A stretch of 47,565 nucleotides of DNA from Myceligenerans salitolerans (GTDB taxonomy: Bacteria; Actinomycetota; Actinomycetes; Actinomycetales; Cellulomonadaceae), in the NCBI RefSeq assembly GCF_017349295.1, contig NZ_JAFMPK010000030.1, positions 14,862 through 62,426 on the forward strand, read 5' to 3'. Shown here in pieces: positions 34,185 to 47,550 of the stretch. The notes below the pieces were generated by a model that saw nothing but the letters and a program-made list of their open reading frames with translations, had not been told where the DNA came from and did no database searches. The position numbers were made by a program, and so were the translations under genes. Each line of letters starts with the position of its first letter. Position 1 is the first letter of the stretch.

Positions 34185-34919
34185 TCAGGCGAGGAGCCAG
34201 GCAGCCGCCGCGCGCAGGAACGCGCGATGCGACCGCGACGCGTAGGAGCGGACGTCGTGGCCCAGGCCGGAGTAGACCGTGCGTCCGCCGTGGGCCTCGT
34301 TGGCCCAGGCCACGCCGTGCACACGGGTGCCGTCGGCGGCGCCGAAGCCGGACTCGGCCGGACCGCGCGTCGTCAGGAGGACCCGCGAGGACTCCGCCAC
34401 CACGAGATGGCAGTACCGCTCGTCGTACGCGTCGACCACGCCGGCGCCGTCCCGGGCGTCGGCGCGTCCGTCGGTGACCGGATGCCCGGGAACGACGTCG
34501 AACACCGCGTCGCCGATCGGCGGATGCATGGAGACGCCGGGAATCCACCGCCCACCGAGGATCGCCTCGAATCCCGGCGCGTCGGCGAACGTGTTCGCCG
34601 CCTGGTGCAGCGCGAGGATCGCCCCGCCCGAGCGCGCCCAACCGGCGAGACGCTCGTGGAACGCCGTCCAGTCCCCGTCGGCCCCGTCGAACTCCGGATC
34701 GGTGCGGCCGCGGCCGGAGTTCAGGACCAGCAGACCGGCGCCGTCCAGGTCGCCCAGCGCGTCCCGCCACGTCGAGCGGACCTGCACGGCGACGTCGTCC
34801 CGCTCCACCGCCCCGGGTTCGCCGAGGATGCGCGCGACCTCGTGCGAGGTGGCGGCATGGTCGTGCCAGGGGTCCTCGTACCGCCCGCGACCGGCCAGGA
34901 CAAGAATGCGCGTCGTCAC
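34185..34919 (-). CDS. ThuA-domain protein (class I glutamine amidotransferase-like)
   Basis: The product is 244 aa. ThuA-like proteins have a glutamine-amidotransferase fold and occur with sugar oxidoreductases; ThuA itself is needed for trehalose/sucrose catabolism through 3-keto sugars. The expected segments are seen: ILVLAGRGRYEDPWHDH, the core GGAILALHQAANTF, the ligand stretch GRWIPGVSMHPP, and GHPVTDG. The usual nucleophilic Cys is replaced by an ALHQA context, normal for this family. GTG 34919 has TAGGAT (34927-34932, minus strand) 7 nt upstream, so it is probably leaderless. Confidence 0.85.
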   Translation of the reverse strand: MTTRILVLAGRGRYEDPWHDHAATSHEVARILGEPGAVERDDVAVQVRSTWRDALGDLDGAGLLVLNSGRGRTDPEFDGADGDWTAFHERLAGWARSGGAILALHQAANTFADAPGFEAILGGRWIPGVSMHPPIGDAVFDVVPGHPVTDGRADARDGAGVVDAYDERYCHLVVAESSRVLLTTRGPAESGFGAADGTRVHGVAWANEAHGGRTVYSGLGHDVRSYASRSHRAFLRAAAAWLLA

Positions 34920-38904: not shown

Positions 38905-40749
38905 TCACGTCACGGCGCCGACGTGCCAGGGGATGAACTCCTCGGCGCCGATCTCCAGGTCCTCGCTCACCGTGTGTTCTCCTGACGCGACCGCGAGGAC
39001 GAGGTCGAAGATCTGCCGCCCGACGTCCTCCAGCGACGCCGTGCCGTCCACGATCACTCCCGCGTTGACGTCCATGTCCTCGGCCATCGCCGAGTACATC
39101 GGCGTGTTCGTGGCCACCTTGATCGAGGGTGTCGGGCGGCAGCCGAACACCGATCCGCGGCCTGTCGTGAAGACGACGACGTTCGCCCCGCCCGCGACCA
39201 TGCCGGTCACCGACACGGGGTCGTAGCCCGGCGTGTCCATGAACGTGAGACCGGCCCTCGGCGCGACGGGTTCGGCGTACTCGTAGACCGCGGACAGAGG
39301 AGCGGTGCCACCCTTGGCCACGGCCCCGAGCGACTTCTCCAGGATCGTGGTGAGCCCACCGGCCTTGTTGCCCGGCGACGGGTTGTTGTCGAGCGTGCCG
39401 CCGCCCGCCGCGACGTAATCGCGCCACCAGTCGATCCGGTCGAGCAGCTTCCGTGCAACGGCGGGCTCCGTGGCGCGCGCGGTGAGCAGGTGCTCCGCCC
39501 CGTACACCTCGGGCGTCTCCGCCAGGACGGACGCGCCCCCCAGGGCCACCAGCCGGTCCGACGCCCAGCCCAGCGCCGGATTCGCCGTCACGCCGGAGTA
39601 GCCGTCGGAGCCGCCGCACTCCAGGCCGAGCACCAGCTCCGACACGTCGCACTCCTCACGCTGGCGCGCGTTGACCCGCGGCAGCATCTCGCGTACCGCG
39701 GCCACGCCCGCGCGGACCGTCGCGCGGACGCCGCCGGACTCCTGGATGGTGAGCGACCGGACCACCGTGTCGGCCGGGATGGAGGCCAGGAGCCCGGGGT
39801 CGACACCCGTCACGGAGCCGGCGACCGCATCGGTACCCGACGACGGTGTCCCGTTCGTGTCCGCCCCGGCGTCCGACGACGGCGGCCGGCTCGTGTCCGA
39901 CGACGGCGCCGGCCCGGCGGTCTCGTCGGCACCGGCAGGCTCCCCGGTCGGCCCCGACGTGAGGCCGGGTGCGCCGATCGCGGGCATCCCGAGATCGACG
40001 CTCCGGCCCGACCGCGCCGACAGGGCCGCACCGGGGACCATCTCGCACCCGAGGCCGAGGACCAGCAACCCGGACACGTTCGGGTGGGCCGCGTGCCCTC
40101 GCAGGGTGCGCAGCAGCATGCGTCCGCCCTCGGACTCGGGCACCATTCCGCAGCCGCTGGTGTGGGTGAGCGCGATGACCCCGTCCACGTTCGGGAACTC
40201 GTCCAGGGCGGCGCCGCGGAACTGGTCGGCGATCATCCTCGCCGTCGTCGCCGAGCAGTTGACGCTGGTCAGGATCGCGAGGTAGTTCCGGGTCCCGACG
40301 CGGCCGTCGGCCCGGCGGTAACCGCGGAAGGTCGGCCGGGCGGCGTCGTCGGAATCGGTGACGCTCGTCGTGGCGATGCCTGCGGCGGACCGTCGACCGC
40401 CCTGGCCCGACGCGGCCGGCCGATCCGGCCCGTTCCCGCCGTCGTCCGATGTCGTCGGGCCGGTGCGGCGGAGGGCACGAGCGGCCTCGTCGTCGAAGGC
40501 GAGGTTGTGCGCGTGCACGTGGTCGCCGGGGACGATGTCCGCCGTCGCCACACCGATGACCTGTCCGTACTTGCGCACGGGGGCCCGGCGGCCGACGTCG
40601 GACAGCGCGATCTTGTGTCCGCGCGGCACGGGCCGCGGGCCGACGGTGACGACGTCGCGGCCACCGCTCACGGCCTCGCCCGGCGCGAGATCCCGCAGGG
40701 CGATCCCGACGTCGTCCTCACCGTTCAGCACCAGTACATCGACGCCCAC
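38905..40749 (-). CDS. Altronate dehydratase family (UxaA) protein with SAF domain and unusual insert
   Basis: The product is 614 aa, longer than the ~495 aa of E. coli UxaA. An N-terminal SAF domain (about 1-85) is followed by a low-complexity linker, then the UxaA core: GYRRADGRVGTRNYLAILTSVNCSA, HTSGCGM, GLECGGSDGYSG, NPSPGNKAGGLTTILEKS and FTTGRGSVFG. All conserved Cys/His segments remain. A ~65-residue Ser/Asp/Gly/Pro-rich insert lies between LGLGCE and TIQESGG. Family members dehydrate D-altronate or related sugar acids to 2-keto-3-deoxy acids. GTG 40749 has GGGAG upstream. It follows the sugar-binding-protein gene but a strong hairpin lies between them. Confidence 0.85.
   Translation of the reverse strand: MGVDVLVLNGEDDVGIALRDLAPGEAVSGGRDVVTVGPRPVPRGHKIALSDVGRRAPVRKYGQVIGVATADIVPGDHVHAHNLAFDDEAARALRRTGPTTSDDGGNGPDRPAASGQGGRRSAAGIATTSVTDSDDAARPTFRGYRRADGRVGTRNYLAILTSVNCSATTARMIADQFRGAALDEFPNVDGVIALTHTSGCGMVPESEGGRMLLRTLRGHAAHPNVSGLLVLGLGCEMVPGAALSARSGRSVDLGMPAIGAPGLTSGPTGEPAGADETAGPAPSSDTSRPPSSDAGADTNGTPSSGTDAVAGSVTGVDPGLLASIPADTVVRSLTIQESGGVRATVRAGVAAVREMLPRVNARQREECDVSELVLGLECGGSDGYSGVTANPALGWASDRLVALGGASVLAETPEVYGAEHLLTARATEPAVARKLLDRIDWWRDYVAAGGGTLDNNPSPGNKAGGLTTILEKSLGAVAKGGTAPLSAVYEYAEPVAPRAGLTFMDTPGYDPVSVTGMVAGGANVVVFTTGRGSVFGCRPTPSIKVATNTPMYSAMAEDMDVNAGVIVDGTASLEDVGRQIFDLVLAVASGEHTVSEDLEIGAEEFIPWHVGAVT
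39838..39912. repeat. Imperfect repeats inside the UxaA-family gene
   Basis: CGACGACGG starts at 39838, 39874 and 39898, each followed by GTGTCCCG- or GGCCGG-like sequence, with spacings of 36 and 24 (multiples of 12). They encode the recurring PSSD/PSSG pattern of the insert and suggest it grew by in-frame slippage. Confidence 0.6.
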
Positions 40750-40859
40750 GACGACTCCCTTCCACCGTGCCGCGTCTCGCGGCCGACCGTCCCAGCATTT
40801 CCCGCCCGCTCCCGGCCGCACCACCGCACCCGCACCGCGACCCCCGCGGGCCCCCGCCG

Positions 40860-40922: not shown

Positions 40923-42251
40923 TCAGTCCGCGATCGCCGCGTTGACCTCTTCCATGAACATCGTCGCGGCCTCCTCCGGCGTGATGCGTTCGAAGACCAC
41001 CTCGGTGTTGATGCGCTCCATGATGTCCTGCATCTCGGCCGACCCGTTCGGCGGCACGGGCGAGGCGTCGACGATCTCGTCGCCGAGGTCGGCCATGAAG
41101 TCGGCCACCTGCTTGTCGGCGTCCGTCAGGTCGTCGGCGATGACCTCGCGCATGTCCGTGTTCGCGGGCAGGCCGCGGTCCGTCAGGTTGATCTTCGCGG
41201 CCTCTTCGGAGTTGAGGAGGAAGTCCACGAACTTCGCCGCGGCGTCCGGGTACTCCGTCGTCGCGGACACCGAGTAGAACATGGCCGGCTTGTAGTACAT
41301 GCCCGTGCGCTCGAACTCGGTCTCACCCGGGTACCGCAGCAGCTGGATGTCCTCGCCCGACGCCTCCGACAGCGCGCCGAGCTGGTTGGACCAGAAGGAC
41401 GCCATGCCGCCCACGTTGGTGCCCACGAGCGACCCCTCGGGCCCGGCGTGCTGGTACTCGATCGTGCGCGAGGCGTCGGGCTGGCCGCCGTCGGCCATCA
41501 GGTCGAGCGACGTCTGGAAGAACTGGGCGACGGTCTCCTCCGACACCCCGATCTCACCGTCCGGCGTCCACAGGCTCTCGCCCTTCTGCCGGGCGAGGAT
41601 GTTCAGGCCGGCCTCGTTGAAGCCGTAGTCCTGAGCGCCCCAGACGCCTTCGCCGGCCCCCTCGGACACCGCGTTCGCGACCTCGACGTACTCCTCCCAG
41701 GTCCACGACGTGTCGTCGGGGATCTCGACCCCGGCCTCCTCGAAGACTCCGGGGTTCGCCACGATCGCGTAGGCGTTGATCCCCGTGGGCAGCGCGTACT
41801 GCGTGCCGTCGATCCGACCACCCGCGAGGATGCTCTCGTCGATCTTCGACGTGTCGATGTCGAGCTCGCCGAGGTCCGCGAGCACGCCGCGCGTGGCGTA
41901 GTCGGAGACGTAGCGCTCCTCCTGCGTCATCACGTCGGGGGTGTCACCCGCCGCCACGGTCGTGGAGAGCTTGTTCCAGTAGCCGTCCCAGTCGGTGAAG
42001 TCCGGGACCACGGTGATGTCCGGGTTCTCCGCCTCGAACGCGTCGATGATCTCCTGCGTCGCGGCGTGGCGCTCGTCCGACCCCCACCACGAGAAACGGA
42101 TCTCGCACGGGCAGTCCTGGGCCTCGACCTCGCCGGTGCCGCCGACGCCGGAGTCGCCGCCGCCGCACGCGGACAGGATCAGGGCGGTGGCGGCGGCTCC
42201 CGCCGCCACCGCGGCGCCGCGTCGGCCACGCTGGTTGATTGAGGTACGCAT
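40923..42251 (-). CDS. Carbohydrate ABC transporter substrate-binding lipoprotein (CUT1)
   Basis: The product is 442 aa, an extracellular solute-binding protein of family 1. A signal peptide ends in the lipobox LSAC (Cys29), followed by a Gly/Ser spacer and the SBP domain (EIRFSWWGSDERHAATQEII near residue 50). A Cys-x-Cys pair (DCPC) just after the spacer is unusual. Ligand unknown: CUT1 proteins bind oligosaccharides, glycosides or polyols. AAGGAG precedes ATG 42251. It is the third transporter gene of a divergent locus with the LacI fusion. Confidence 0.9.
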   Translation of the reverse strand: MRTSINQRGRRGAAVAAGAAATALILSACGGGDSGVGGTGEVEAQDCPCEIRFSWWGSDERHAATQEIIDAFEAENPDITVVPDFTDWDGYWNKLSTTVAAGDTPDVMTQEERYVSDYATRGVLADLGELDIDTSKIDESILAGGRIDGTQYALPTGINAYAIVANPGVFEEAGVEIPDDTSWTWEEYVEVANAVSEGAGEGVWGAQDYGFNEAGLNILARQKGESLWTPDGEIGVSEETVAQFFQTSLDLMADGGQPDASRTIEYQHAGPEGSLVGTNVGGMASFWSNQLGALSEASGEDIQLLRYPGETEFERTGMYYKPAMFYSVSATTEYPDAAAKFVDFLLNSEEAAKINLTDRGLPANTDMREVIADDLTDADKQVADFMADLGDEIVDASPVPPNGSAEMQDIMERINTEVVFERITPEEAATMFMEEVNAAIAD

Positions 42252-42355: not shown

Positions 42356-43282
42356 CTATTTGATGCCCGTCGTGGCAATCCCCTTGACCAGGTACTTCTG
42401 GCCGAAGAGGAACACGAGGAACACCGGGATCAGGGAGACGATCGACATCGCGAACAACGCGCCCCACGAACTCTCGCCCGTGGAGTCGACGAACGTCCGT
42501 AGTGCGATCGGCACGGTGTACATGTCCGGCTTGGTGAGGAAGATCAGCTGGCTGAAGAAGTCGTTCCAGGCCCAGATGAACGTGAAGATCGCGGTGGTCG
42601 CCAGGGCGGGAAGCGCGAGCGGCATCATGATCTGCCAGTAGATGCGCAGGTGCCCCGCGCCGTCGATCCGTGCGGCCTCGTCCAGCTCACGCGGGATCCC
42701 GCGGAAGAACTGGACCATGAGGAAGATGAAGAAGGCGTCCGTGGCCAGCAGTTTGGGCACGATCAGGGGCAGGAACGTGTTGATCCATTCGAGCCGGGAG
42801 AACATCACGTACTGCGGCACGATGATGACGTGGATCGGCAGCATGATGGTCATGAGCATGATCGCGAACCAGAAGTTGCGGCCCCGGAACTTCAGCCGGG
42901 CGAAGGCGTAGGCGGCCAGCGAGCACGACACCAGGTTGCCCAGCACGCAGCCGAGCACCACGATCGCGGAGTTGATCAGGTAGCGGCTGAACGGGTGGAG
43001 CAGGGCGCTCCAGCCGTCGGTGTAGTTGGACAGGTCCACGTCCGTGGGAATCAGCCCGGGCTCGCGGAAGATGAGCGCGTTCGGCTTGATCGAGCTCGCC
43101 AGCATCCACAGCAGCGGATAGAGCATGACGAAGCCGAAGAGGATGAGTCCGGCATGCTTGAGCGCGCTCGTCACGGCCGACCGGGCGCGGCGCCGGGTGC
43201 CACCGGCACGCCGCACGCTCCGCTTCGGGGACGACGACGGTTCGGCGAAGGTGACCTTCGAGGGCGTGGCGAGATCAGTCAT
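42356..43282 (-). CDS. Carbohydrate ABC transporter permease (MalG type)
   Basis: The product is 308 aa with six membrane segments and a basic, extended N-terminus. The EAA loop EAARIDGAGHLRIYWQIMMPLALPA, which contacts the ATPase, is complete. Its ATG lies 8 bases inside the end of the preceding permease gene and has no clear ribosome-binding site, so translation depends on coupling. There is no ATPase gene in this locus; a shared MsiK-like ATPase encoded elsewhere is expected, as for many actinobacterial CUT1 systems. Confidence 0.92.
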   Translation of the reverse strand: MTDLATPSKVTFAEPSSSPKRSVRRAGGTRRRARSAVTSALKHAGLILFGFVMLYPLLWMLASSIKPNALIFREPGLIPTDVDLSNYTDGWSALLHPFSRYLINSAIVVLGCVLGNLVSCSLAAYAFARLKFRGRNFWFAIMLMTIMLPIHVIIVPQYVMFSRLEWINTFLPLIVPKLLATDAFFIFLMVQFFRGIPRELDEAARIDGAGHLRIYWQIMMPLALPALATTAIFTFIWAWNDFFSQLIFLTKPDMYTVPIALRTFVDSTGESSWGALFAMSIVSLIPVFLVFLFGQKYLVKGIATTGIK

Positions 43283-44201
43283 CGTAGTGAACCCAATACT
43301 TCGAGGCGAGGAAGTTGACGAGCGTCATTCCGCCGATGATCAGGAGCAGGAACCACGCCATGGCCGACGCGTACCCCATGTCGAGGTCCGCGAACCCCTT
43401 GCGGTACAGGTAGAGCGTGTAGAGCAGGGTCGAGTCGGCGGGGCCGCCGTTCCCGCCGCTCACCACGAACGCCTGCGTGAAGTTCTGGAAGGCGTTGATG
43501 AGCTGCAGCACGAGGTTGAAGAACACGATCGGCGTGAGCATCGGGACCGTGATCGACCAGAACTGGCGCAGCCGTCCCGCGCCGTCGATCGAGGCCGCCT
43601 CGTAGTACATCCGGGGAATCTGGCGCAGCCCGGCGAGGAAGATCACCATCGGGGCGCCGAACGTCCAGACGTTCAGGATGATCAGCGTGTTGAGCGCGTG
43701 GTCCGGGTGGGAGACCCAGCCGGTCCCCTCGATCCCCACGAGGGCCAGGACCTGGTTGACCAGGCCGTCGGCGCCGAAGATCTGCCGCCACAGGATCGCG
43801 ATGGCGACGCTGCCGCCGAGCAGCGAGGGCAGGTAGTAGACGGACCGGTAGAGCGCCAGCCCGCGCATGCCCTTGTCGAGCACGAGGGCCAGCGCGAGCG
43901 CCGCCGCGAGCTGGAGGGGTACCGACACGAACACGTAGGTGAACGTGACCTGGAGCGACTGGAGCAGCCGGGGGTCCTCGAACATCCGCACGTAGTTGTC
44001 GACGCCGATCCACGTGGGTGCCGACAGCAGGTCGTAGTCCGTGAAGGACAGGTACAGCGACGCGGCCATGGGGCCGGCCGTGATGAGGAACAGCCCCACG
44101 AACCACGGGGCGAGAAAGAGCGCGGCCATTCGGCCGTCGCCCTTGCGTCGCTCGCCCGCGGTTCTCCGCGTGCTCGCGACCTCTTGGATCACGCTGGACA
44201 T
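43275..44201 (-). CDS. Carbohydrate ABC transporter permease (MalF type)
   Basis: The product is 308 aa with six membrane segments. The EAA motif is EAASIDGAGRLRQFWSITVPMLTPI. It pairs with the MalG-type permease to form the channel. The ATG at 44201 has GGAGGG close by. It is the first gene of the transporter operon, divergent from the LacI/DUF6807 fusion gene, with two palindromic operators in the 149-bp region between them. Confidence 0.92.
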   Translation of the reverse strand: MSSVIQEVASTRRTAGERRKGDGRMAALFLAPWFVGLFLITAGPMAASLYLSFTDYDLLSAPTWIGVDNYVRMFEDPRLLQSLQVTFTYVFVSVPLQLAAALALALVLDKGMRGLALYRSVYYLPSLLGGSVAIAILWRQIFGADGLVNQVLALVGIEGTGWVSHPDHALNTLIILNVWTFGAPMVIFLAGLRQIPRMYYEAASIDGAGRLRQFWSITVPMLTPIVFFNLVLQLINAFQNFTQAFVVSGGNGGPADSTLLYTLYLYRKGFADLDMGYASAMAWFLLLIIGGMTLVNFLASKYWVHYDD

Positions 44202-44282: not shown

Positions 44283-44296
44283 GGGAAACCGGTTGC
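44283..44296. promoter_or_regulatory. LacI-type operator A (transporter side)
   Basis: GGGAAACCGGTTGC is a palindrome centred on CC/GG at 44290/44291, resembling GAAACCGGTTTC. It lies just downstream of a possible transporter -10 (TACGTT on the minus strand, 44305-44310), where a bound repressor would block transcription. Confidence 0.7.
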
Positions 44297-44318
44297 TGTG
44301 CCAGAACGTACCACATGA

Positions 44319-44331
44319 GGAACCGGTTTCC
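44319..44331. promoter_or_regulatory. LacI-type operator B (regulator side)
   Basis: GGAACCGGTTTCC is a second copy of the same palindrome, 34 bp from operator A centre to centre. It lies just before the -10-like TACCTT (44339-44344) of the fusion gene, so the regulator probably controls its own synthesis. Confidence 0.7.
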
Positions 44332-44350: not shown

Positions 44351-46366
44351 GTGAACATCAGGCGCCCAGCAGTGACGATCGGCGACGTGGCCGCGGCCGC
44401 GGGCGTCTCACGTGCCACGGTGTCGCGGGTGATGAACGGGCGCAGCACGGTCGCCGCGGAGATCGCGGAGCGCGTGCGGGAGGCCGCGGAGTCGCTGAGC
44501 TACCGGCCCAGCACCGCCGCCCGCAACCTGGCCCTCGGCCGCACGCGGACCGTCGCCCTCGTGATGCCCGACGTCGGCAACCCCGTCTTCCAGCAGATCC
44601 TGCACGGGGTCATGGCGGCGGCCGACCAGGACGGCTACCGCGTGCTGGTCGCCGACACCGCCGAGGACCGCAGCCAGGAGGCCGCGATAGCACTCGAGGC
44701 GCGACTGCGCTGCGACGCGCTCGTGCTCGTCTCCCCCCGCATGCCCGACGACGACCTCGCGCGGCTCGTGCCCGACGTCGAACCCGTCGTCGTGCTGAAC
44801 CGCCAGGTGCCTCCCCCTGTGGATCAGGACGGCGCCGCCGGCGGGGGTACCGCCGCACCGAGTCTGCTCGTGGACTACGAGGACGCCGCGGTCCAGGTGA
44901 TCGAGCACCTCGTGAGCCTCGGCCACCGCCGGCTCGTCTATCTGGCCGGCCCCACCGCGTCGGCGTCGGACGCGCAACGGCGCGCCGGCATCCGGCGCGC
45001 GCTGGAACGCCACCGGGCGCTCGACGTACAGGAGATCCCCGCCGGCCCGGACATCGCCGCCGGGCACGCGGCGACCGGCGCCGTGCTCGCCGGCCGCGCG
45101 ACAGCGGCCGTCGCCTTCAACGACCTGGTCGCGTTCGGTCTGCTCGCAGGATTGAACGAGGCCGGCGTCGCCGTGCCCGCCGACATCTCGGTGGCCGGAT
45201 TCGATGACATCGACCTCGCCCGCTACGCGACACCGGCGCTCACGACGGTGGCCGTGCCGCAGTCGGAGCTCGGCCGACACGCCTGGAAGGAGCTAGCCGC
45301 AGTGATGGACGACGATGCCCAGCCTGCACGGTCCGCCCGTTTCACCACGGAGCTCGAGGTGCGCGCCAGTACCGGTCCAGCTCCGGTGGGACCCGAGCGC
45401 GTGCATGCCACCGACCGCGCGGTCCCCGCCGGGGCGGCCGGACCGAACCCCGCCGGCCCCGTCGAGGACGGGCGAGCCGCGCCGGACGCGGCCCTGACCT
45501 GGGAGGAAGGACCGGACGCACTGGTACTGCGCGGCCCCGCCGGGACGCCGCTCGCGCGGCGGGAGACCGGCGAGCGCATCCCGCCGGTCCATGCACCACG
45601 CCCGTACCTTCACCCGGTGCACACGCTGGGCGGGACGCCGCTGACGGACTCCGGTCCGGTGGACCACCGGCACCACTACGGCGCGGGAATGGCCGTGGCG
45701 GACGTCAACGGCACGAGCCACTGGGGTGGACGCACGTTCATCGAGCACGTGGGGCCGACGCTCCTGCAGAACCACGGCCGGCAGGTCGCGCGCGACCTGC
45801 GGCCCGACGGCAACACGCTGACCGAGACGGTGGCCTGGCTCGACGAGCACGGCAGGCAGCAGCTCGTCGAGGACCGGCGGGTGACCGCCCGTCTGCTCGC
45901 ACCTTCCGGAGCCGCGGACGCCGTGCCTCCGGGGTGGGTGCTGGACTGGCGTTCCGTGCTGCACGCCTCCGACGGCCCGCTGGAGATCCGGTCACCCGCC
46001 ACGAACGGTCGGCCGGGCGCGGGCTACGGGGGCCTGTTCTGGCGGCTGCCGATCGCCGACGAGACCCGTGTCCTGTCGGTCGCCGGCGAGGGCGAGACCC
46101 TGGCGCACGGCAGCGGCTCGCCGTGGGTGGCGTTCGTGCAGCGGCACGGTGACCGCCCGACCACCCTGGTGCTCGTCCAGCCCGGCACCGTGCGGCCGTG
46201 GTTCGTGCGCTCCGCCGAGTACCCGGGCGCGTGCCCGGCACTGGCGTGGGACGCCCCGCTGCTCGTACCCGACGGCGGCATGGTGCAGGTGGGCCTGGTC
46301 GCCGCGCTGTTCGACGGCGAGCTCGGCCCGGCGCAGGCCGCCGCGGTGGCGGAGGCGGTCGTATGA
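44351..46366 (+). CDS. LacI-family regulator fused to a DUF6807 (PmoA-like) domain
   Basis: The product is 671 aa. Residues 1-339 form a complete LacI protein: helix-turn-helix (VTIGDVAAAAGVSRATVSRVMNG, 8-30), hinge, and a sensor domain ending in TTELEVRAST. A Pro/Gly/Ala-rich linker (about 340-378) joins it to a DUF6807/PmoA-like domain (about 379-671; PF14100 from memory), with HPVHTLGGTPLTD, DHRHHYGAG, a WGGRTFIEH segment and the C-terminal VPDGGMVQVGLVAALFDG. DUF6807 has no established activity; in other genomes it occurs as a separate gene near sugar oxidoreductases. GTG 44351 is chosen from TACCTT 6 nt upstream. The stop overlaps the oxidoreductase start as ATGA. No frameshift sign is seen at the join. 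Confidence 0.85.
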   Translation: MNIRRPAVTIGDVAAAAGVSRATVSRVMNGRSTVAAEIAERVREAAESLSYRPSTAARNLALGRTRTVALVMPDVGNPVFQQILHGVMAAADQDGYRVLVADTAEDRSQEAAIALEARLRCDALVLVSPRMPDDDLARLVPDVEPVVVLNRQVPPPVDQDGAAGGGTAAPSLLVDYEDAAVQVIEHLVSLGHRRLVYLAGPTASASDAQRRAGIRRALERHRALDVQEIPAGPDIAAGHAATGAVLAGRATAAVAFNDLVAFGLLAGLNEAGVAVPADISVAGFDDIDLARYATPALTTVAVPQSELGRHAWKELAAVMDDDAQPARSARFTTELEVRASTGPAPVGPERVHATDRAVPAGAAGPNPAGPVEDGRAAPDAALTWEEGPDALVLRGPAGTPLARRETGERIPPVHAPRPYLHPVHTLGGTPLTDSGPVDHRHHYGAGMAVADVNGTSHWGGRTFIEHVGPTLLQNHGRQVARDLRPDGNTLTETVAWLDEHGRQQLVEDRRVTARLLAPSGAADAVPPGWVLDWRSVLHASDGPLEIRSPATNGRPGAGYGGLFWRLPIADETRVLSVAGEGETLAHGSGSPWVAFVQRHGDRPTTLVLVQPGTVRPWFVRSAEYPGACPALAWDAPLLVPDGGMVQVGLVAALFDGELGPAQAAAVAEAVV

Positions 46367-47550
46367 GCTCCCGCGGCACCCGGGGGCGCGTCGCGCGGAT
46401 CGCCGTGGTCGGTGTGCACGGGCACGGTGCGTCGCACGTGCGGCGGGTCCATGAGCTCGCGGCTCGCGGTGAGGCGGAGCTGACGGCCGTCGTCGACCCG
46501 CGCGAACCCGACCCAGGAGCACCCGGGGAGTCACGGGCCCGGTGGTTCGCGAGTCTCGGCGACCTCCTGTCGCAGGGCGAGCTGCCCGACGTCGTCGTCC
46601 TGTCGACCCCGATCCACACACATCTCCCGCTCGCGCAGGCGGCGATGGAGGCCGGCATCGACGTCCTGCTGGAGAAGCCGACCGCGGCCTCGCTCGCCGA
46701 GCACGAGGCGCTCGTCGGCGTGGCCGAGCGGACCGGACGCCGGTGCCAGGTCGGCTTCCAGACGTTCGGGTCGCACGCGTTGGCCGCCGTGTCACGGATG
46801 ATCGAGCGCGGAGAGGTCGGCCAGGTCACGGGTATCGGCGCGGTCGGCGCCTGGGTACGGACGGCGTCGTACTGGAGCCGCTCGGCGTGGGCCGGCCGCC
46901 GGCACCTCGACGGGCACGACGTGGTCGACGGCGTCGTGACCAACCCGCTCGCGCACGCCGTCGCGACGGCGTTGCGGATCGGCGGTGCGCGCCGGGCCGC
47001 CGACGTGGCCTACGTCGACACCGACCTGTGGCGGGCCAACCCGATCGAGGCCGACGACACGTCCTCGGTGCGGGTGGTCGCCGCGAACGGCACCCGGTTC
47101 GGCTTCGGGCTCACGCTCTGCGCGGACGAGCGGACCCCGTCCCGCGTCATCGTGTACGGCACCGAGGGCACCATCACGCTGGAGTACGAGTTCGACCGTG
47201 TGCTGCTGCGGACCGGCGCCGTCACGGCCGAGAAGGAGTACGGCCGCACCTCGCTCCTGGAGGACCTGCTGGCCGTGCGCCGTACCGGCGGGCAGTTGCT
47301 CTGCGACGTCGCCGAGACCGGCGCCTTCATGCGGGTTCTGGAGACCGTGCGGACAGGGCCGGAGCCGCGCGCGATCGTGTCCGGCGACGGCACACATGAC
47401 ACGGCGGTCCCGGACGGTGTCATGGAGTGGCGCGGCGAGGGAGGGGACCGCCGGCCGGTGATCCACGACGTCGAGCGCTGGTGCGAACGTGTCGCGGCCA
47501 CCCAGAAGACGTTCACGGAACTCGGCGCCCCCTGGACCGTCCGGCCCTGA
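46363..47550 (+). CDS. Gfo/Idh/MocA-family oxidoreductase
   Basis: The product is 395 aa. The N-terminal NAD(P)-binding motif G17-V-H-G20-H-G22 (a variant GxxGxG), the family motif EKP (104-106) and TPIHTHLPLAQAAMEAG are present; the C-terminal domain has NPLAHAV with a His and a Tyr-rich segment (GYE-like EYEFDR). Substrates in this family are sugars, inositols and sugar acids, often oxidised at C3; the substrate here is unknown. GGAGG is 7 nt before ATG 46363, which overlaps the fusion-gene stop as ATGA. It ends 15 bases before the window edge. Confidence 0.9.
   Translation: MSSRGTRGRVARIAVVGVHGHGASHVRRVHELAARGEAELTAVVDPREPDPGAPGESRARWFASLGDLLSQGELPDVVVLSTPIHTHLPLAQAAMEAGIDVLLEKPTAASLAEHEALVGVAERTGRRCQVGFQTFGSHALAAVSRMIERGEVGQVTGIGAVGAWVRTASYWSRSAWAGRRHLDGHDVVDGVVTNPLAHAVATALRIGGARRAADVAYVDTDLWRANPIEADDTSSVRVVAANGTRFGFGLTLCADERTPSRVIVYGTEGTITLEYEFDRVLLRTGAVTAEKEYGRTSLLEDLLAVRRTGGQLLCDVAETGAFMRVLETVRTGPEPRAIVSGDGTHDTAVPDGVMEWRGEGGDRRPVIHDVERWCERVAATQKTFTELGAPWTVRP

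Follow-up and report, generated by a model that had tools for sequence, protein, structure and literature searches.

Why should a LacI-family repressor carry at its C-terminus a complete DUF6807 domain (PF14100, a family that we take to have been formerly labelled PmoA)? The question is raised by a gene close to the end of a 47,565-nucleotide stretch of the actinobacterium Myceligenerans salitolerans (contig NZ_JAFMPK010000030.1, positions 14,862 to 62,426), here called the window, which ends at the same point as its contig, C25. An earlier note on this DNA had proposed that a single gene encodes a LacI regulator together with a complete DUF6807 domain, and that it is coupled through an ATGA motif to a Gfo/Idh/MocA oxidoreductase gene, here GFO1. 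The profile matches bear out the former (table 1): Peripla_BP_3 (PF13377) covers fusion residues 184-341 at 117.2 bits (cut-off 26.5), and the DUF6807 match, with 194.4 bits (cut-off 27), spans profile positions 8-269 of 270 and is complete. As for the coupling, the TGA of the fusion (46364-46366) indeed overlaps the ATG of GFO1 (46363-46365). GFO1 shows a Rossmann domain (PF01408, 65.3 bits) and a C-terminal domain (29.7 bits), both above cut-off, and comparison with solved relatives and NCBIfam returned weak general matches only, with no specific name. The frame of the fusion is free of stops through window coordinate 46366, its listed open reading frame beginning at TTG 44228. We count codons from GTG 44351, although ATG 44333 is an equally possible start. 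A third candidate, ATG 44315, lies further upstream and overlaps candidate operator 2, so that its conservation in the genus may reflect the operator only.

The fusion of repressor and DUF6807 is confirmed as real, neither chance nor a sequencing slip, because it recurs in three of three same-genus genomes (L034, L046, L047), although its absence from close relatives is what the earlier note had named as a refutation, and in 59 distinct sequences, all with an unbroken frame across the fetched loci. Our genome sample comprised 59 genomes (own, genus, family and order), of which 24 were PF14100-positive, and 18 of these, own included, have the fusion. A further scan, whose named loci are the best 80 of 559 confirmed stretches, returned 45 LacI-DUF6807 fusions, in Promicromonospora, Isoptericola, Cellulosimicrobium, Cellulomonas, Demequina, Kribbella, Microbacterium, Agromyces, Brachybacterium and other genera. 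The search for this architecture that the earlier note had suggested thus finds it in many actinobacteria. Its view that DUF6807 is normally separate holds in part: standalone copies exist, but LacI fusions make up more than half of the named loci, and in Actinomadura and relatives the domain is fused to an oxidoreductase. Over all loci we distinguish 113 DUF6807 domains: 59 belong to LacI fusions and 16 to oxidoreductase fusions, while 38 are joined to neither. Across the phylum the fusion is rare: at least 2 of 246 genomes drawn evenly, the own genome counted, have a full-length copy. This is a minimum, because only five candidates were scored per genome and LacI paralogues crowd them. Among the best 20 of 3,973 plasmid records, all matches were LacI-only except one, in two pieces at 31.8% identity.

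A quick, midpoint-rooted tree of all 113 distinct domains places the LacI fusions within one 66-row group (SH-aLRT 98), together with seven non-fusion copies, among them that of genome G021. The fusion state requires a minimum of five changes on this tree, two of them forced by the starred branches. Compared with the three same-genus genomes, the DUF6807 domain has a dN/dS of 0.07-0.10, which denotes purifying selection, the periplasmic-binding-protein-like (PBP) part 0.12 and the linker 0.28-0.51; the cross-genus DUF6807 values of 0.32-0.55 rest on high dS and were given no weight. Linker length varies between homologues from 12 to 72 residues. Because the fusion recurs widely and its within-genus dN/dS is low, it is a maintained protein and not an accident. 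An assembly artefact of joined reading frames is ruled out by the recurrence in relatives and the purifying selection, and an artefact or pseudogene join in the wider sense is exceedingly improbable. G021 (L026/L038) would fit the latter, as its LacI and DUF6807 halves lie in different frames at the linker, but the 59 uninterrupted sequences and purifying selection on both halves speak against it. In G021 a separate DUF6807 adjoins a GFO1 homologue.

What does the domain belong to? Gene orders, taken from a simple high-GC gene caller that may miss small or low-GC genes, show that the arrangement UxaA-SBP-PERM2-PERM1 diverging from fusion-GFO1 recurs in several genera. Counting as adjacent any GFO1 homologue within 700 bp, 40 of the 59 distinct fused and 24 of the 38 standalone DUF6807 domains adjoin one. 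Since 80 of the 113 distinct domains are thus beside (64) or fused to (16) a GFO1 homologue, a link of DUF6807 to the GFO1 oxidoreductase pathway, as the earlier note had suggested, is well supported. Among the 40 GFO1-adjacent fusions the stop context is ATGA or GTGA in 34 and CTGA in six, the GFO starts not being individually verified. Both kinds of fusion are seen, so DUF6807 has been joined to the oxidoreductase as well as to the repressor. At L112:6825-8735 (Actinomadura) and 15 other loci, mostly of Actinomadura, Herbidospora and relatives, DUF6807 sits C-terminally on a Gfo/Idh/MocA oxidoreductase. The L112 protein adjoins an SDR epimerase-type protein and an enolase-superfamily protein whose nearest match, below cut-off, is talarate/galactarate dehydratase. 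In loci of Nocardiopsis, Streptomonospora and Thermobifida, similar transporter genes lie near a GFO2-type oxidoreductase and GFO1, with DUF6807 and LacI as individual genes, though not every locus has all of these. In Cryobacterium (L099:6389-10919), a row of GFO2-type oxidoreductase, DUF6807, GFO1 and an isomerase-like TIM barrel resembles the make-up of the levoglucosan keto-sugar pathway.

Which genes might the repressor control? Two AACCGGTT palindromes lie 34 bp apart between the divergent operons, and even, CG-centred palindromes near the own promoter are what the LacI family leads one to expect. The exact pattern RRNAACCGGTTNYY occurs at four sites in the 4.58 Mb genome (window 44284 and 44318, C34:66307 and C35:5108), and RRNAACCGGTTNYY read backwards matches once; at up to one mismatch the window holds three matches versus 0.44 expected. 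The site at C34:66307 precedes the called start of a PL9-like pectate lyase (1233 aa) by some 130-140 bp; that at C35:5108 lies within an ABC ATPase-like gene. Of the 39 GFO1-adjacent fusion loci that could be evaluated (L073, whose contig begins inside the LacI part, was left out), 28 have two sites (at most one mismatch), spaced 34-35 or 46 bp. One further locus has a single site; the other ten have none and their genes are co-directional, so the promoter is presumably upstream of the transporter, outside the scanned region. In fusions without an adjacent GFO1, 9 of 19 have a site and three of those nine have two.

The lyase on contig C34 matches pectate lyase 1ru4 (E 7.6e-36), which we take to be a PL9 enzyme, in addition to a PL9 module, and is probably secreted. 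Gene order in L034, L046 and L047, compared with that in L138, suggests a junction of the C25 end with the C34 end, which would place the lyase and the oxidoreductase GFO2 next to GFO1. The divergent CUT1 transporter and UxaA-family gene that the earlier note had described are likewise present by profile matches. The UxaA/GarD-family enzyme comprises SAF, second and C-terminal GD_AH domains, is the sole PF20629 gene found in the genome, and has one NCBIfam match, to galactarate dehydratase (353.6 bits, below the cut-off of 730.85). Between its second and C-terminal domains runs a long low-complexity stretch rich in Pro, Ser, Gly, Ala and Asp.

The genome has a second, standalone DUF6807 at L033 (G000:C34:12000-28000). 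Its neighbours are UxaC and ManD (both above cut-offs), a LacI, a mannitol-dehydrogenase-family enzyme, an oxidoreductase distinct from GFO1 (25 bits to it), a cupin, CUT1-type genes and a PL11 rhamnogalacturonan lyase. Both DUF6807 loci of the genome thus stand in pectin/uronate contexts. Ten large neighbours of the relatives' clusters were also scanned, yielding one PL1-type pectate lyase (L043) and one PL11 lyase (L037). The operator-like site upstream of the PL9-like lyase, taken with the UxaA-family dehydratase, points to the fusion being a pectin/galacturonate repressor, a pathway that the earlier note had not named. Pectate lyases give unsaturated oligomers, and searches of the own genome for GH88/105, PL22 and GH28 found none. 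Absence of KduI and KduD was rejected as a pathway gap: both are on C33, above cut-offs, along with a sugar kinase and a KDPG-aldolase-family gene.

The same searches covered the PF14100-positive genomes except G018 and G041, 22 in all. PL22 was found in none of the 22, the E. coli control being positive, and GH88/105 (PF07470) stronger than E 1e-80 only in G013, G027 and G036; five other genomes have weaker matches above cut-off (1e-24 to 4e-11) and four have matches below it. In G013, G027 and G036 the fusion clusters with the GH88/105 gene and UxaA (L048, the sole annotated one, also with GH28, KduI and KduD) and no GFO1 adjoins it. The DUF6807 domains of these three differ as well. Leaving out domains shorter than 230 aa or containing X kept 80 (loci L054 upward). 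Alignment A3 holds 62 of these and alignment A4 holds 38 of the 44 fused loci, each with the window copy added. We chose 16 core residues: R417, H421, P436, D438, H439, H442, W458, E507, R509, R554, Y559, W564, R565, W617, R620 and D655. The window domain retains all 16. H439 and R554 are kept in 54 of 54 domains unfused to LacI, and both are changed in the fusions of G013, G027 and G036. This pattern fits a replacement of GH105 by DUF6807 plus GFO1.

The fold prediction that the earlier note had proposed gives a confident beta sandwich (AlphaFold2, AF2, pLDDT 95.5 for the DUF6807 domain); the comparison with solved folds that was to follow it turned out weak. Among the 50 best Foldseek rows are GH36 enzymes and proteins related to mutarotases (E from 2.4e-4 to about 3e-2, TM at most 0.48), interspersed with unrelated proteins, and the modelled domain weakly resembles galactose-mutarotase-type sandwiches. 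In the model of the whole protein the LacI part and DUF6807 are well folded around a low-confidence linker (348-377; pTM 0.60). Since the linker is disordered and pTM is 0.60, the mutual arrangement of the two parts is undefined in the model.

In this context, we consider it somewhat probable that the protein is an operon-local LacI-family repressor of oligogalacturonide/galacturonate use, tethered to an enzyme or enzyme-derived DUF6807 that acts with GFO1 on galacturonides. Without substrate, the LacI part would bind the two palindromes between the divergent operons and the one upstream of the PL9-like lyase, holding down the lyase, the transporter, the UxaA-family enzyme, its own gene and GFO1; a pectin fragment on the PBP domain would free the DNA. 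DUF6807 would be an enzyme-type sugar domain, co-made with GFO1 through the overlapping genes, standing in for the DUF6807 that related clusters encode as a gene of its own and most likely acting with GFO1, perhaps also GFO2, on a keto- or unsaturated sugar derived from a uronide. The levoglucosan route would be a workable model of the chemistry, with the Cryobacterium gene row as a parallel. In lineages without an adjacent GFO1 the domain remains fused and may serve as a sugar sensor only. What this scheme takes from observation are the domains, their conservation, the gene cluster, the candidate operators and the model; DNA binding, ligand and catalysis are inferred. Rather unlikely is the stronger version, a catalytic transcription factor in which DUF6807 and GFO1 would open or transform (unsaturated) galacturonides by an oxidation-elimination-type route that replaces GH105/PL22, the reporter of the inducer thus also removing it.

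Several observations weigh against the proposed enzymatic partnership. Nineteen of the 59 fused copies have no GFO1 homologue within 700 bp, and 15 of these 19 keep all 16 core residues, as would fit a sensor; conversely, eight Microbacterium fusions with an adjacent GFO1 carry H421D or H421N. We rejected a faster DUF6807 drift in the absence of adjacent GFO1, the DUF6807/LacI distance ratio being 1.18 in GFO1-adjacent copies versus 1.23. Because the three altered fusions form one clade on the tree, the G013/G027/G036 pattern is a single event and a correlation only, with GFO1 looked for at the locus only. Four genomes with weak GH88/105 matches (G014, G023, G034, G056) have GFO1-adjacent fusions, GH28 is found in 8 of the 22 genomes, including some fusion-bearing ones, two of them same-genus, and unknown galacturonidases could fill the GH88/105, GH28 and PL22 gap. 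The fold match is weak, with YidC and a viral capsid protein in the same Foldseek list, and the DUF6807 sequence has no match among solved structures at E up to 1. To our knowledge, DUF6807 has no known activity, as the earlier note had said, and no known ligand.

The main rival, which we hold to be possible but unlikely, is that DUF6807 is purely a second sensor, enzyme-derived and without turnover, which binds a pectic or other sugar of the plant cell wall and modulates the LacI part. The copies without GFO1 are what it would expect, some of them lying beside or near GH43 (L075, L076), pectinesterase/GDSL (L087) or pectate lyase (L081) genes, and so are the three fusions that lost H439 and R554 yet keep the domain. 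In G048 (L039, L040) and L075, moreover, it is a standalone DUF6807 that adjoins GFO1, and not the fused copy. MocR regulators, with their aminotransferase-like domain, offer a precedent (PMC5320631). However, a second DUF6807 gene is present in only 1 of 45 fused loci (L075), the GFO1-adjacent fused copy being usually the sole one, the window domain keeps its full set of core residues, and a disordered linker would be poorly suited to allosteric coupling. Judging from the contexts of L075, L076, L081 and L087, other genes for plant cell walls may be under the control of the fusion. Less likely still is that DUF6807 is an enzyme riding on the regulator gene for co-expression, with no regulatory effect. 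The variable, disordered linker (12-72 residues), the joining of DUF6807 elsewhere to an oxidoreductase and the overlap with GFO1 all fit such an arrangement, but fused copies persist without adjacent GFO1. Moreover, repressors are usually made in small, autoregulated amounts, so that their genes would be an odd site for a catabolic enzyme. Compared with these alternatives, we retain the repressor tethered to a DUF6807 that would work with GFO1 as the preferred interpretation.

Elsewhere in the window, about 9 kb from the fusion, a ThuA-family protein is encoded at 34188-34919 on the minus strand (PF06283, 53.4 bits, cut-off 33.4), a family presumably tied to keto-sugar routes.

Table 1. Features of the fusion locus and its divergent operon, in window coordinates
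Feature	Position	Strand	Basis
UxaA/GarD-family dehydratase	38905..40755	-	PF20629/PF04295/PF08666; start codon uncertain
Substrate-binding protein of the transporter (SBP)	40923..42251	-	PF13416/PF01547
CUT1 sugar ABC permease (PERM2)	42356..43282	-	PF00528; nearest NCBIfam GlcU/UgpE/MalG, below cut-off
CUT1 sugar ABC permease (PERM1)	43275..44201	-	PF00528; nearest NCBIfam UgpA/MalF, below cut-off
Candidate operator 1, GGAAACCGGTTGCT	44284..44297		Genome pattern scan and recurrence in relatives
Candidate operator 2, AGGAACCGGTTTCC	44318..44331		Genome pattern scan and recurrence in relatives
LacI-DUF6807 fusion gene	44351..46366	+	671 codons counted from GTG 44351; recurring homologous fusions
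LacI helix-turn-helix (HTH), residues 9-54	44375..44512	+	PF00356, 59.6 bits (cut-off 27)
PBP-like effector domain, residues 66-341	44546..45373	+	PF00532 78.8 bits / PF13377
Disordered linker, residues 348-377	45392..45481	+	AF2 pLDDT <50
DUF6807 domain, residues 398-667	45542..46351	+	PF14100; beta sandwich in AF2 model
Gfo/Idh/MocA oxidoreductase (GFO1)	46363..47550	+	Overlaps fusion gene via ATGA

How does the fusion compare with known systems? LacI-family uronate regulators for glucuronate and galacturonate, namely ExuR, KdgR, UxaR and UxuR, are listed in PMC4052901, whose main text contains neither "fused" nor "fusion". Local LacI sugar regulators share with the fusion the HTH and PBP domains, even CG-centred palindromes and an operon of transporter and catabolic genes, whereas the fusion carries a third, enzyme-like domain. 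Standalone DUF6807 proteins have the same core residues and often the same Gfo/Idh/MocA partner, but no regulator attached, and the L033 copy stands beside UxaC, ManD, a PL11 lyase and a different oxidoreductase. In Actinomadura and its kin, L112 among them, the oxidoreductase-DUF6807 fusions are alike in their C-terminal DUF6807 and CUT1 genes, with sugar-acid-type neighbours at L112, and unlike in that the partner is a dehydrogenase and not a repressor. MocR (GntR plus an aminotransferase-like domain) also places an enzyme-derived domain in a transcription factor, although there the enzyme fold is the sensory domain (PMC5320631), while here a complete PBP domain is present too. The levoglucosan pathway (LgdA/B1/B2/C) proceeds, according to PMC7676230, by oxidation, elimination, hydration and reduction with four enzymes. 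It recalls the present locus in having LacI and ABC genes close by and two dehydrogenases around an elimination/hydration that opens a glycosidic bond through a 3-keto sugar; the enzymes in between bear the annotation of sugar phosphate isomerases/epimerases and not DUF6807, and its substrate is an anhydroglucose. In the open-licence PMC literature searched (for the family name, the best 25 of 1,004 matches) we found no text on a LacI-DUF6807 fusion, and DUF6807 named in one paper only, in passing; domain databases may already list the architecture. Regulators with enzyme-derived domains are already known, as in MocR.

For the DUF6807 family, the locus points to pectic uronides as the likely class of substrate, names GFO1 as a partner and supplies a regulator with a promoter response that can serve as a readout, while the three genomes with GH88/105 offer a natural residue-loss experiment. 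If DUF6807 is active, the repressor of these pectin genes would itself contain an enzyme acting on pectin sugars, which could explain how an actinobacterium that bears a pectate lyase, and in which GH88/105, GH28 and PL22 were not found, completes the use of oligogalacturonides. The fusion may thus mark a new way of handling pectin sugars.

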